A stretch of 64,000 bases of DNA, from contig NZ_AP027080.1 of assembly GCF_030295405.1 (NCBI RefSeq), positions 3,084,001 through 3,148,000 on the forward strand, given 5' to 3'. Source of the DNA: Mesoterricola silvestris (lineage in GTDB: Bacteria; Acidobacteriota; Holophagae; Holophagales; Holophagaceae). Position 1 is the first letter of the stretch, and each line of letters begins with the position of its first letter. Positions 39,775 through 44,570 of the stretch are shown here, one piece after another. The notes under the pieces were generated by a model that was not told the DNA's origin, did no database searches, and worked only from the letters and a program-made list of their open reading frames with translations. The position numbers were made by a program, and so were the translations under genes.

Positions 39775-40206
39775 CTACCTGTTCGGCCCCAACGTTTCCT
39801 CCAGGAGCCCGCAGGCCAGGTCCGCCGTCCCGGCGATCACCTTGGCGCATGCGCAGCTGTACGCAGTGCCGCCGAAAGGCGTGGGCGTCGTCGGGCACAG
39901 GACGGACCCGAAGCCCTCCTCGAATCGCCGTTTGAGTTCCAGGGCCAGGGCCCCGGGCACGTCGAGGCTTTCGTCCGGGTAGGTGCGGCCGGTGGCGCAT
40001 CCCAGGGCCATCAGGCCCCCGGATAGGGCGCCGCACCGGCCGTCCAGAACCGGGCCCAGGCGCCCTCCGAAGCAGGAGGCGGCCCGGGGCACCAGTTCCG
40101 AGGCCACCCCAAGCTCGTCGGTGACCGCCTTAAGCACCGCCTCCGCGCAATTGAATCCGCTGGCATGGAGGGCTTGCGCCCGCATCGCCGCGCCGTTCCG
40201 GGTCAT
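39775..40206 (-). CDS. C_GCAxxG_C_C-family putative redox protein
   Basis: The product has 143 residues with eight cysteines (20, 45, 58, 70, 104, 118, 120, 132). The arrangement fits the C_GCAxxG_C_C family: SGFNCAEAVL at the start, ASCFGGRLGP, RCGALSGGLMALGCATGR, then the later Cys group. These proteins are believed to bind Fe-S clusters or perform redox reactions, often in anaerobes, but the role is not established. It follows the TetR gene by 12 bases and is probably its target. Confidence 0.85.
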   Translation of the reverse strand: MTRNGAAMRAQALHASGFNCAEAVLKAVTDELGVASELVPRAASCFGGRLGPVLDGRCGALSGGLMALGCATGRTYPDESLDVPGALALELKRRFEEGFGSVLCPTTPTPFGGTAYSCACAKVIAGTADLACGLLEETLGPNR

Positions 40207-41543: not shown

Positions 41544-43262
41544 ATGAAGGTGATCGTGGCCAAGACGGCGGGGTTCTGCTGGGGCGTGCGCAGGGCCATG
41601 GACGCCGTGCTGGACGCGTCCACGCGGAGCGGATCGGGTCCCGTGCAGACCCTCGGCCCCCTCATCCACAACCCCCAGGCCCTGGAGCTCATCGGCCGCC
41701 GGGGGGTGTCCGTGGCCCCGGCCCCGGAGGCGGTGGCCTCGGGCACGGTGGTCATCCGCGCCCACGGCATCCCCATCCAGTCCCTGCGGGGGCTCAAGGA
41801 CCGCCAGCAGCGGGGGGAGCTCTCCATCGTCAACGCCACCTGCCCCGAGGTGGCCAAGGTCCACAGCAAGATCAAGAAATGGAGCCCCAAGGGCTACTTC
41901 ACCGTCATCCTGGGCACCCACGGGCACGCCGAGAGCGTGGCCCACCAGAGCTTCGCCGAAAGCGGCAGCGCCATCGTGGCCAACCTGGACGAGGCCCGGG
42001 CCCTCCCGGACGATGTGCTGCGCAAGGTCCTGGTGGTGGCCCAGACCACCTTCACCATGAAGGACTTCCAGGAGATCAGCGAGTACATCCGGGGCCGGGC
42101 CAAGGAGTGCATCTCGGAGAACACCATCTGCGAGGACACCTGGACCCGCCAGGAGGAGGCCCGGAACCTGGCCCGCACCGTGGACTACGTCATCGTCGTG
42201 GGCGGCAGGGCCTCCTCCAACACCAAGCACCTGGCGGAACTGGCCGTGCACTACGGCAAGCCGGTGCAGTACGTGGAGACCGCCGCGGAACTGGACCTGA
42301 CCCGCTTCGAGGGGGTGGGCACCGTGGGCGTCATGGCCGGCGCCTCCACTCCCACCTGGCTGGTGGAGGAGGTGGTGGACATCCTCGAGCAGCACGGCAA
42401 GGGCCCGGAGCGCTACACCCGGATCTTCAACGCGGCCTTCGGCACCCCCCTGAAGCTGGCCGTGGGCGCCGGCGCCCTCACCCTGGGCGTCCACGCCTGG
42501 ACGGGGCTGCCCCCCTCCTGGAAGTACGCGGCCATCACCGCCCTCTACGTGCTGACCATGTTCCTCCTGGCCCCCTTCCTGAACCCCCTGGGCCTGGGTT
42601 CCAAGGGCCCGGCCCGGGCCCGCATCCTGGAGCGGAACCGCACCCTCATGGTGGGCACGGCCCTGGCGTCCCTGGCGGCGGCCCTGACTCTTTCGGCCAC
42701 CCTGGGCCTGGGCTCCCTGCTGGTGGTGGCCGCGGCCTCGGTGTTCGGCATGGTCTACAAGCGCAAGCTGCAGGTGGGCGGCACGACCCTGAGCATCCAG
42801 TCCATCCCCGGGTCCAAGGACATCCTCGTCCCCGCCGCCCTGGCCGTGGTGGCGCTGGCGCTGCCGCTGTGGCACCACGGCCTGGCCTGGGGCCCCCGGG
42901 TGTGGGCCGGGATCCTCCTGGTGGCGGTCCTGGGCTTCGCCCGCACCACGCTCTTCAATCTCAAGGACATGCAGAACGACCAGATCCTGGGCAAGGAGAC
43001 CCTGCCCATCGTCTTCGGGCGCCGCACCACCAAGATCCTCCTCCTGGCCTCCCTGGCCCTGGCCGGCGCCGCCATCCTGGCCGCCACCATGCGGGTCCCC
43101 TCGCGCCACGGCTGGATCCAGGCGGGAATCATCCTGGCGTGCCTGGTGTACCCGGTGGTCCACCTGTGGCTCTTCCAGGAGCGGTTCTCCGCCGGCAAGG
43201 CCCGGTTCGAGCCCTGGGTGGAGCTGAGCTTCTACGCGGCCGGACTTCTGGCGCTGTTCTAG
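41544..43262 (+). CDS. ispH: IspH (HMBPP reductase) fused to a UbiA-like membrane domain
   Basis: The product has 572 residues. Residues 1-285 are IspH, the last enzyme of the MEP isoprenoid pathway. The three cluster cysteines are present (Cys12 in GFCWGVRRA, Cys100 in NATCPEV, Cys196 in NTICEDT), as are His42, His74, the HAE motif (128-130; usually HPE) and QTTF (168-171). Residues about 300-572 are a membrane domain of seven to nine helices like UbiA prenyltransferases. Its second Asp motif is FNLKDMQNDQILGKETLP (Asp475, Asp479), but the first NDxxDxxxD motif is not recognisable near Asn347. IspH is well supported; activity of the second half is uncertain. Confidence 0.88.
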   Translation: MKVIVAKTAGFCWGVRRAMDAVLDASTRSGSGPVQTLGPLIHNPQALELIGRRGVSVAPAPEAVASGTVVIRAHGIPIQSLRGLKDRQQRGELSIVNATCPEVAKVHSKIKKWSPKGYFTVILGTHGHAESVAHQSFAESGSAIVANLDEARALPDDVLRKVLVVAQTTFTMKDFQEISEYIRGRAKECISENTICEDTWTRQEEARNLARTVDYVIVVGGRASSNTKHLAELAVHYGKPVQYVETAAELDLTRFEGVGTVGVMAGASTPTWLVEEVVDILEQHGKGPERYTRIFNAAFGTPLKLAVGAGALTLGVHAWTGLPPSWKYAAITALYVLTMFLLAPFLNPLGLGSKGPARARILERNRTLMVGTALASLAAALTLSATLGLGSLLVVAAASVFGMVYKRKLQVGGTTLSIQSIPGSKDILVPAALAVVALALPLWHHGLAWGPRVWAGILLVAVLGFARTTLFNLKDMQNDQILGKETLPIVFGRRTTKILLLASLALAGAAILAATMRVPSRHGWIQAGIILACLVYPVVHLWLFQERFSAGKARFEPWVELSFYAAGLLALF

Positions 43263-43837
43263 TGCTCAGGCGGATCCTTACCTCCGTGGCCGGCGCGGCG
43301 GCGCAGCTGGCGCTCCTGGCGGCCCTTGCCGCGGGCGGCATCCGGGACGGGCTGGGGTTCTGGATCCTGGTGGCGGCCCTCCTCGTGTGCACCCTCGCCG
43401 TCGCCTGGACGCGGCGCCCCTACGACCGGGCCCGCCTGGGCTTCCTCCTCGCCCACCTGGGGCCGGCGCTGCTCCTGGCGGGGCTGTGGGGTCCGGCCTG
43501 GGCCGTGATTCCCGGCCTGGCCTGCCTGGCCATCGGCATCCCCTGGATGTTCTGGATCAAGCCCCTCCTCAAGGCCCGCAAGGACAAGGCGGCCCCGCCC
43601 GCCTGGGAGCGCCTCACCCTCCAGGGAACGCGGGTGCTCTTCCTGGCCAGCGGGGCCGGCCTGGCCCTCCCCGCCCTGCGCCGGGAAGCCCCGGCGCCGT
43701 GGCTCCTGGCCTCCTGGCTCGTCCTGGCCGTGGCCCTGCACCTGCACCACGTCAAGGCGCTGAAGGGCCCCCGGGCCCAGGCGGCGGGGCTGGTGTCCTG
43801 GGCCCTGTGCCTAGCTGCTTTTCTCGCCCTGCGGTAG
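43262..43837 (+). CDS. Polytopic membrane protein of unknown function
   Basis: The product has 191 residues from a GTG whose first base is the last base of the upstream TAG, so translation is coupled to the IspH-UbiA fusion. It has about five to six hydrophobic helices, with a basic loop (RRPYDRARLGF) and a Lys-rich loop (KPLLKARKDKAAPP). LLAHLGPALLLAGLWG is reminiscent of ResB-like or other small membrane proteins, but not enough to assign. It ends 86 bases inside the convergent methyltransferase gene. A role in quinone or isoprenoid metabolism is only an inference from the coupling. Confidence 0.65.
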   Translation: MLRRILTSVAGAAAQLALLAALAAGGIRDGLGFWILVAALLVCTLAVAWTRRPYDRARLGFLLAHLGPALLLAGLWGPAWAVIPGLACLAIGIPWMFWIKPLLKARKDKAAPPAWERLTLQGTRVLFLASGAGLALPALRREAPAPWLLASWLVLAVALHLHHVKALKGPRAQAAGLVSWALCLAAFLALR

Positions 43838-44570
43838 CGCCCGCCCGGCGCCAGGGGAGAGGGAAGAAGCGCGGCACCTCCCGGCGGTAGGCCGCGTACC
43901 GGGAGCCCAGGTTCCGCATCAGGTCCCCCTCCTCCAGGGCCGTCCCCACGAGGATGTAGGCGGTCATGGCCAGGGTGAAGACCAGGTGGCCCACCGTCAT
44001 GCGGGGCGCCGCCCAGAAGACGACCAGGAAGCCCAGCATCAGGGGGTGGCGCACCCGGGCATAGAAGGCCGTGAGGCGGAACGGCGCCTCCCGGTACGGG
44101 GTTCCCCGGACGTTCGCCCACACCTGGCGCAGGCCGAAGAGATCCCAGTGGCTCACCATGAAGGTGCTCGTCACCACGAGGGCCGCGCCCGCCCAGAACC
44201 CGGCCTGGATCCCCAGGCGCGCGAGGGGCTGGCGAACATTCCAGACCTCCCCGGCCAGGGGCCGCCACAGGAGGAACAGCAGGGCCAGGGCGGTGGAGGA
44301 CAGGAGGACGTAGGTGCTGCGCTCCAGGTGCGCCGGCACGAACCGCTGCCAGGCCCGCTTGAAGGCCGGGCGGGCCATGAGGCTGTGCTGGATCCCGAAG
44401 AGCGCAACCAGGCCAAGGTCCACCGCCAGGGCCGGCCCGGCGGCCCCCACGGGCCCCACGGAAACGGACCGGGCCAGGCCCAGGTCTCCCACGAAGGCCA
44501 GCAGGTAGAAGAAGGAAGCCAGGAAAGACAGGTAACAGAAAAGACCGTAAAAAAGACTCAAAATAGGCAT
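43752..44570 (-). CDS. Methanethiol S-methyltransferase-like membrane protein (MddA type)
   Basis: The product has 272 residues and about six helices. The N-terminal SLFYGLFCYLSFLASFFYLLAF pattern, FGIQHSLMARPAFKR and the C-terminal ...FYARVRHPLMLGF... with EEGDLMRNLGSRYAAYRREVP are the MddA/NnrU-isoprenylcysteine methyltransferase signature. MddA methylates methanethiol to dimethyl sulfide with S-adenosylmethionine. GAGGA precedes the ATG. About 25 residues after the conserved part are Pro/Gly-rich and come from the 86-base overlap with the convergent gene. Substrate assignment is by family only. Confidence 0.82.
   Translation of the reverse strand: MPILSLFYGLFCYLSFLASFFYLLAFVGDLGLARSVSVGPVGAAGPALAVDLGLVALFGIQHSLMARPAFKRAWQRFVPAHLERSTYVLLSSTALALLFLLWRPLAGEVWNVRQPLARLGIQAGFWAGAALVVTSTFMVSHWDLFGLRQVWANVRGTPYREAPFRLTAFYARVRHPLMLGFLVVFWAAPRMTVGHLVFTLAMTAYILVGTALEEGDLMRNLGSRYAAYRREVPRFFPLPWRRAGATAGREKQLGTGPRTPAPPPGPGGPSAP

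Follow-up and report, generated by a model that had tools for sequence, protein, structure and literature searches.

The gene at positions 41544–43262 of the window (the 64,000-nucleotide stretch of the Mesoterricola silvestris genome analyzed here) encodes a fusion of IspH with a membrane domain of predicted UbiA fold. The reading that we favor, at a probability of roughly 0.6, is that this domain tethers the sole IspH of the organism at the membrane and carries a ligand site that has been rebuilt into a noncanonical, likely nontransferring form. IspH catalyzes the final step in the bacterial pathway to isoprenoid precursors; it is an essential protein and drug target that is usually regarded as soluble. 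The fusion itself is already known in kind (Rao et al. 2015); new relative to the published work are a wider range, the lack of the first Asp motif (motif 1) throughout the examined family, with another sequence in its place in Holophagaceae, and the erosion of the second (motif 2) in lineages that keep the membrane tail. The features of the locus are as follows.

41544–43262, + strand: IspH–UbiA fusion gene (ATG start, 572 aa; Pfam and locus comparison)
41544–42392, + strand: IspH (HMBPP reductase) domain, residues 1–283, with [4Fe-4S] ligands Cys12, Cys100, and Cys196 (Pfam, NCBIfam, alignment, foldseek)
42411–43256, + strand: UbiA-fold membrane domain, residues 290–571, nine predicted helices (AlphaFold, foldseek, profile–profile comparison)
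42570–42617, + strand: replaced motif 1, residues 343–358 (APFLNPLGLGSKGPAR; alignment)
42756–42758, + strand: Tyr405, counterpart of the near-universal UbiA tyrosine, Y139 in AfUbiA (alignment; PMC4106721)
42807–42818, + strand: family signature P422-G-S-K425 (K425 in 152/155 members)
42966–42980, + strand: motif 2, D475-M-Q-N-D479 (alignment)
43262–43837, + strand: gene downstream of the fusion (191 aa), probably for a shortened membrane protein of the ResB-like kind (overlap, patchy similarity)

A single reading frame joins IspH to a membrane domain

The initial annotation had described an IspH and a UbiA-like domain in one polypeptide, and its coordinates proved exact: 41544–43262 on the + strand form a single intact frame of 572 codons. 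It had also named a frameshift as a possible pitfall, that is, a sequencing or assembly error that merges ispH with a separate membrane gene. We found no evidence supporting such an artefact. The IspH and membrane domains lie in one continuous frame at 142 of the 142 loci with the domain (from the scan described below and earlier searches), GC3 is 0.97 on either side of the junction, and the fused IspH domains form a single supported clade. An arrangement kept across several phyla is far beyond chance, and we discarded the artefact, whose probability is practically negligible.

The IspH half is complete. Pfam LYTB matches residues 3–281 above its cut-off (E 7e-79), NCBIfam ispH_lytB (TIGR00216) is likewise over cut-off for the N-terminal half, and foldseek matches this half of the predicted model to the IspH structures 3ke8 and 3szu. 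The three cluster cysteines and the catalytic Glu, His, and Thr/Ser/Asn set are all present. That the catalytic residues of HMBPP reductase are kept, as first noted for the window protein, extends to 59 aligned fusions, none of which varies at C12, C100, C196, H42, H74, E130, T168/T169, S224, N226, or S268. This half should therefore be functional. Since the fusion protein is the sole IspH of the source genome (one contig, 4.99 Mb), it would be expected to act as HMBPP reductase and to produce IPP and DMAPP.

A check for other ispH and ubiA genes revealed no second ispH and three further UbiA-family genes in the source genome. Away from the fusion, the genome carries genes for a canonical MenA and for a UbiA/MqnP-like enzyme, which makes quinone synthesis independent of the fused domain; the idea that the fusion stands in for a missing MenA/UbiA was therefore rejected. 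The third stand-alone UbiA-like gene (L003, G000:C1:2339628–2340335) has NSAFDQDEGD where NDxxDxxxD is expected and matched no named NCBIfam family above cut-off.

The membrane half is predicted to have the UbiA fold

Using the family alignment, AlphaFold predicts nine long helices over residues 290–571 (mean pLDDT 84.6; 85.6 for the membrane domain alone), in line with the seven to nine helices first counted. With foldseek, the C-terminal half of the model matches 4tq3/4tq4 at E values of 2e-5 to 7e-5. The predicted membrane domain gives TM-scores of 0.66–0.68 against 4od4 and 0.58 against 4tq3, which are moderate values within an overall range of 0.5–0.68 for known UbiA structures, and the UBIAD1–HMG-CoA reductase structure 8djk is also among its fold matches. 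Profile–profile comparison with stand-alone UbiAs from the compared genomes yields a probability of 96.6%. The Pfam UbiA match (residues 366–550, E 3.5e-7) scores 30.2 bits, below the curated gathering cut-off of 34.2, and stops short of the first-motif region. Based on the predicted model, the fold of the membrane domain is UbiA-like, with moderate TM-scores, and an unrelated membrane fold, which the initial annotation had raised as a counter-possibility, was rejected on the match to 4od4.

Motif 1 is absent across the family and replaced in Holophagaceae

Residue conservation was assessed in 155 distinct family sequences, comprising 50 of the Holophagaceae type and 105 others. Neither NDxxDxxxD nor NQxxDxxxD occurs in any of the 155, hence the window protein, for which the absence of NDxxDxxxD was first recorded, is no exception in the family; a relaxed N-x3-D-x3-[DE] is found in five. 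The aligned stretch of the window protein is A343-P-F-L-N347-P-L-G-L351-G-S-K354-G-P356-A-R358, where A343 and N347 align with N68 and D72 of AfUbiA. The equivalents of these two residues are lost, and those of D198, D202, and Y139 are kept. Compared with catalytic UbiAs, the protein thus has the DxxxD of motif 2, with D475 and D479 exactly where they had been placed, and the conserved Tyr, and lacks NDxxDxxxD. A second DXXXD of the kind counted by Rao et al. is absent from its membrane domain, where D475-MQN-D479 is the only one and residues 343–358 hold none.

The replacement follows two patterns. Of the 50 sequences of the Holophagaceae type, 46 have S, T, or A at position 1 and 44 have D at position 5, where four (including the window protein) have N; every one has P at position 2 and K or R at position 12, with G after it. 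The Asn matching AfUbiA N68 is gone, and a strongly conserved D-P-x-G-x-G-x-K-G-P-x-R stands instead. In the 105 others, position 1 is Asn in 98 and position 5 Asp in 32, usually followed by N-[D/E]-P-x-R. The Desulfobacterales version reads NNLxGxxADRYNDPxR, and its DRYND, which lies off the canonical place, is likely what Rao et al. counted as their first DXXXD. The motif-1 register is backed by two MAFFT alignments that include canonical UbiAs from the compared genomes (for example, L166, NRLADKPSERFNQPGR, against L001, NRLADEDLDAENPR); local hhalign places motif 1 about three residues from the MAFFT register, and from these alignments the register used here is likely, not certain.

Within Holophagaceae, conservation is 0.88 for residues 340–359 and 0.88 for motif 2 (residues 470–489), compared with a mean of 0.72 for the membrane domain. 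In eight pairs, dN/dS of the membrane half ranged from 0.02 to 0.65, always above the IspH value and below 1, and the membrane half is thus under purifying selection. Motif 1 being as conserved as motif 2, with dN/dS below 1, indicates a site that has been replaced and maintained rather than one that is decaying. The comparative data favor the changed or noncatalytic membrane role proposed in the initial annotation, with the correction that in Holophagaceae the site was not simply lost.

These data bear on the idea put forward by Rao et al. (2015) that the membrane half is an active prenyltransferase fed by IspH, which here would require a noncanonical first site. Either N-x3-D-x6-N-[D/E]-P-x-R or, in Holophagaceae, D-P-x-G-x-G-x-K-G-P-x-R could replace NDxxDxxxD, and the high conservation of motif 2, Tyr405, K425, and the replaced motif 1 would suit an enzyme, as would purifying selection on the domain. 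Rao et al. also count a second DXXXD, in Desulfobacterales probably the shifted DRYND. Members such as L166 retain the motif-1 Asn and Asp, and in some lineages the domain could conceivably be active. However, alanine substitution of N68, D72, R22, or K146 in AfUbiA abolishes GPP binding in each case, and the D198A and D202A variants bind GPP 45- and 21-fold more weakly (PMC4106721). With Ala343 and Asn347 in place of N68 and D72, the membrane half of the window protein would not be expected to use the canonical two-Mg mechanism of prenyl transfer, and an active transferase leaves the loss of these residues unexplained. Moreover, IspH yields C5 units only, whereas UbiA enzymes generally take longer chains, and motif 2 erodes in several lineages that retain the fusion. 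Taken together, we consider transferase activity of the window protein doubtful.

Motif 2 is near-invariant in most lineages and eroded in some

Most lineages show hardly any variation at D475, Q477, D479, and G483, and for D475, D479, K425, and R358 near-invariance extends over several phyla. Motif 2 is eroded in L147–L151, L181, L183, L186, and L188, all of which retain the membrane tail, and Glu replaces D475 in L009. In L248 (G452), IspH is followed by seven hydrophobic helices in which both Asp motifs are gone and no match to the membrane-domain profile was detectable. Second, diverged IspH–UbiA copies of 517 and 525 aa, with shortened C termini and altered motifs, occur beside a normal copy in two genomes (L146 in G013 and L147 in G312, respectively). 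Several motif-eroded members also have long-branched IspH domains, and general fast evolution may therefore be the cause of the erosion.

The persistence of the tail in the lineages with eroded motif 2 and in L248 fits a tether role. Taken further, the domain could be nothing but an anchor that positions IspH at the membrane, its residue conservation being structural. The degraded-motif lineages L147–L151 and L248, which keep a multihelix tail, agree with this, as does the complete loss of the domain in L244 and L249. On the other hand, the near-invariance of the charged, active-site-like residues D475, D479, K425, and R358 over several phyla and the equal conservation of motifs 1 and 2 in Holophagaceae argue against a pure anchor, which we regard as unlikely. 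The near-invariance of D475, Q477, D479, and G483 exceeds the needs of a mere anchor and also counts against the reading that we favor.

Distribution and evolution of the fusion

A survey for further fusions, as the initial annotation had advised, uncovered them in several phyla. A membrane-domain scan of one genome per species returned 284 relatives, of which 80 were kept, from Acidobacteriota, Desulfobacterales, Nitrospinota, Zixibacteria, and Planctomycetota including Brocadia. The family ranges over all sampled Holophagaceae, a sister Holophagae family, other Acidobacteriota, Brocadiales, Nitrospinota, Zixibacteria, and Desulfobacterota. The membrane domain is present in 50 of 396 Acidobacteriota genomes (15 of 210 genera) and in 111 of 297 genomes of the phylum of Desulfonema, whose complete genome has the fusion as its sole IspH. 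Within Holophagae, all 50 genomes of family f1, with which Geothrix campi and other Holophagaceae group, and all six of family f2 have IspH as a fusion only (in f1, 49 full and one truncated at 123 aa), and two of these 56 genomes carry two fused copies. All seven genomes of a third family of the class, f3, have a stand-alone IspH.

In a maximum-likelihood tree of 109 IspH domains, all 64 fused ones fall into one group of 67 rows (support 100/91), which also contains three nested unfused rows; the f3 IspHs are placed far off, among other unfused IspHs. The window protein thus shares with the family both the single frame and the ancestry of the IspH domain. One of the unfused rows, L232, is a split frame in a genome that has the membrane domain behind stop codons. 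In the other two, L244 (G439) and L249 (G445), the membrane domain is absent, an apparent secondary loss. The tree topology fits one gain of the fusion and a few losses. A deltaproteobacterial genome that carries the fusion (G424) also has a partial second IspH in a 200-aa frame (G424:C1:4038495–4038968, profile positions 1–152).

Gene neighborhood

The GTG start of the downstream gene at 43262 overlaps the TAG stop of the fusion by one base, which makes translational coupling, as suggested in the initial annotation, plausible. The product had been taken for a membrane protein of unknown function, which is no longer entirely the case. Among its relatives at the equivalent position in other Holophagaceae is a ResB-like protein of 686 aa (Pfam ResB, E 2e-26), which the 43262–43837 product resembles in two short stretches flanking a large loop; the product alone gives no significant match in Pfam. 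We read it as a shortened remnant of a ResB-like cytochrome c biogenesis protein, with its loop deleted and possibly with a CcsA-like tail. A full ResB-like gene occupies the same place in L085, and intermediate short or split forms occur in L008 and L010; in the source genus, a pair of cytochrome c maturation genes may have been lost step by step. Another ResB-like gene lies elsewhere in the source genome. A gene for the methanethiol S-methyltransferase MddA (43752–44570, – strand; NF045656, 289 bits, cut-off 270) converges on the ResB-like gene and overlaps its 3′ end by 86 bases. Also near the fusion, beside a TetR-type regulator, is a gene for a putative redox protein of the C_GCAxxG_C_C family (39775–40206, – strand).

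None of the compared neighborhoods contains a partner gene conserved across phyla beside the fusion. Neighbors differ by lineage, being parA/parB/NYN/plsY/Smr-like genes in Desulfobacterales (named by eye from sequence), a conserved small membrane gene in Brocadiales, and variable genes in Holophagaceae, and a shared operon as a clue to the pathway was thus not found.

Proposed role of the membrane half

In the tether reading, the nine-helix UbiA-fold domain would hold IspH covalently at the membrane. The Holophagaceae domain would most likely still bind a ligand, either a prenyl diphosphate or some other anionic molecule linked to a lipid, with D475/D479, K425, and the newly conserved K354/R358 as candidate contacts. 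Such binding would allow product hand-over or sensing at the membrane, which makes channeling or ligand sensing possible. Reduction of IspH by quinol via the membrane domain was set aside as well, for the general redox reason that menaquinol is too weak a reductant.

A large set of lineages would make IspH solely in membrane-bound form. With the canonical site absent in every examined lineage and rebuilt in one, what had been seen as two enzymes of one pathway becomes a question of tether, channel, or sensor. Since a cultured and sequenced Geothrix strain carries the fusion and the sampled Holophagaceae have no other IspH, this question can be addressed in a living organism.

Comparison with known systems

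Rao et al. (2015) described 47 IspH–UbiA proteins, all from sulfate reducers, reported two DXXXD repeats in the membrane domain, and proposed that the attached domain receives its precursors from IspH; a full-length active protein was not obtained (PMC4746011). The suggestion of the initial annotation that the fusion would put precursor synthesis at the site of use is thus the published idea. A text search of the available literature collection found no later study of an IspH–UbiA fusion. These “Rosetta stone” fusions (PT_UbiA_5) and the window protein have in common the IspH-then-UbiA order, length, a single IspH clade, and motif 2; unlike them, the window protein comes from Acidobacteriota, bears the K-G-P-x-R signature, and has no DXXXD in motif 1. 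With the UbiA superfamily (AfUbiA, 4TQ3-6; ApUbiA, 4OD4/5; MenA; UbiA/MqnP), it shares the predicted nine-helix fold, motif 2, and the Tyr, and it differs in its replaced first Asp motif, a Pfam score below gathering, and a doubtful transfer role. The IspH–RPS1 fusions of Clostridia also extend IspH at the C terminus; in these soluble proteins, the extension consists of S1 RNA-binding repeats and is unrelated to the membrane domain.

The closest functional parallel considered is UBIAD1, which senses GGPP and acts on HMG-CoA reductase (PMC9314443). As in the fusion, a UbiA-fold membrane protein is physically joined to a precursor-supply enzyme; unlike the fusion, the pair is noncovalent and eukaryotic, belongs to the mevalonate pathway, and acts on protein degradation (PMC9314443). 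By this analogy only, the UbiA-fold half could be a built-in sensor of prenyl diphosphate or polyprenyl lipid that tunes IspH, the first metal site having turned into a Lys/Arg anion site. We regard this as quite unlikely; if true, the fusion would be a covalent bacterial counterpart of the GGPP-sensing UBIAD1–HMG-CoA reductase pair.
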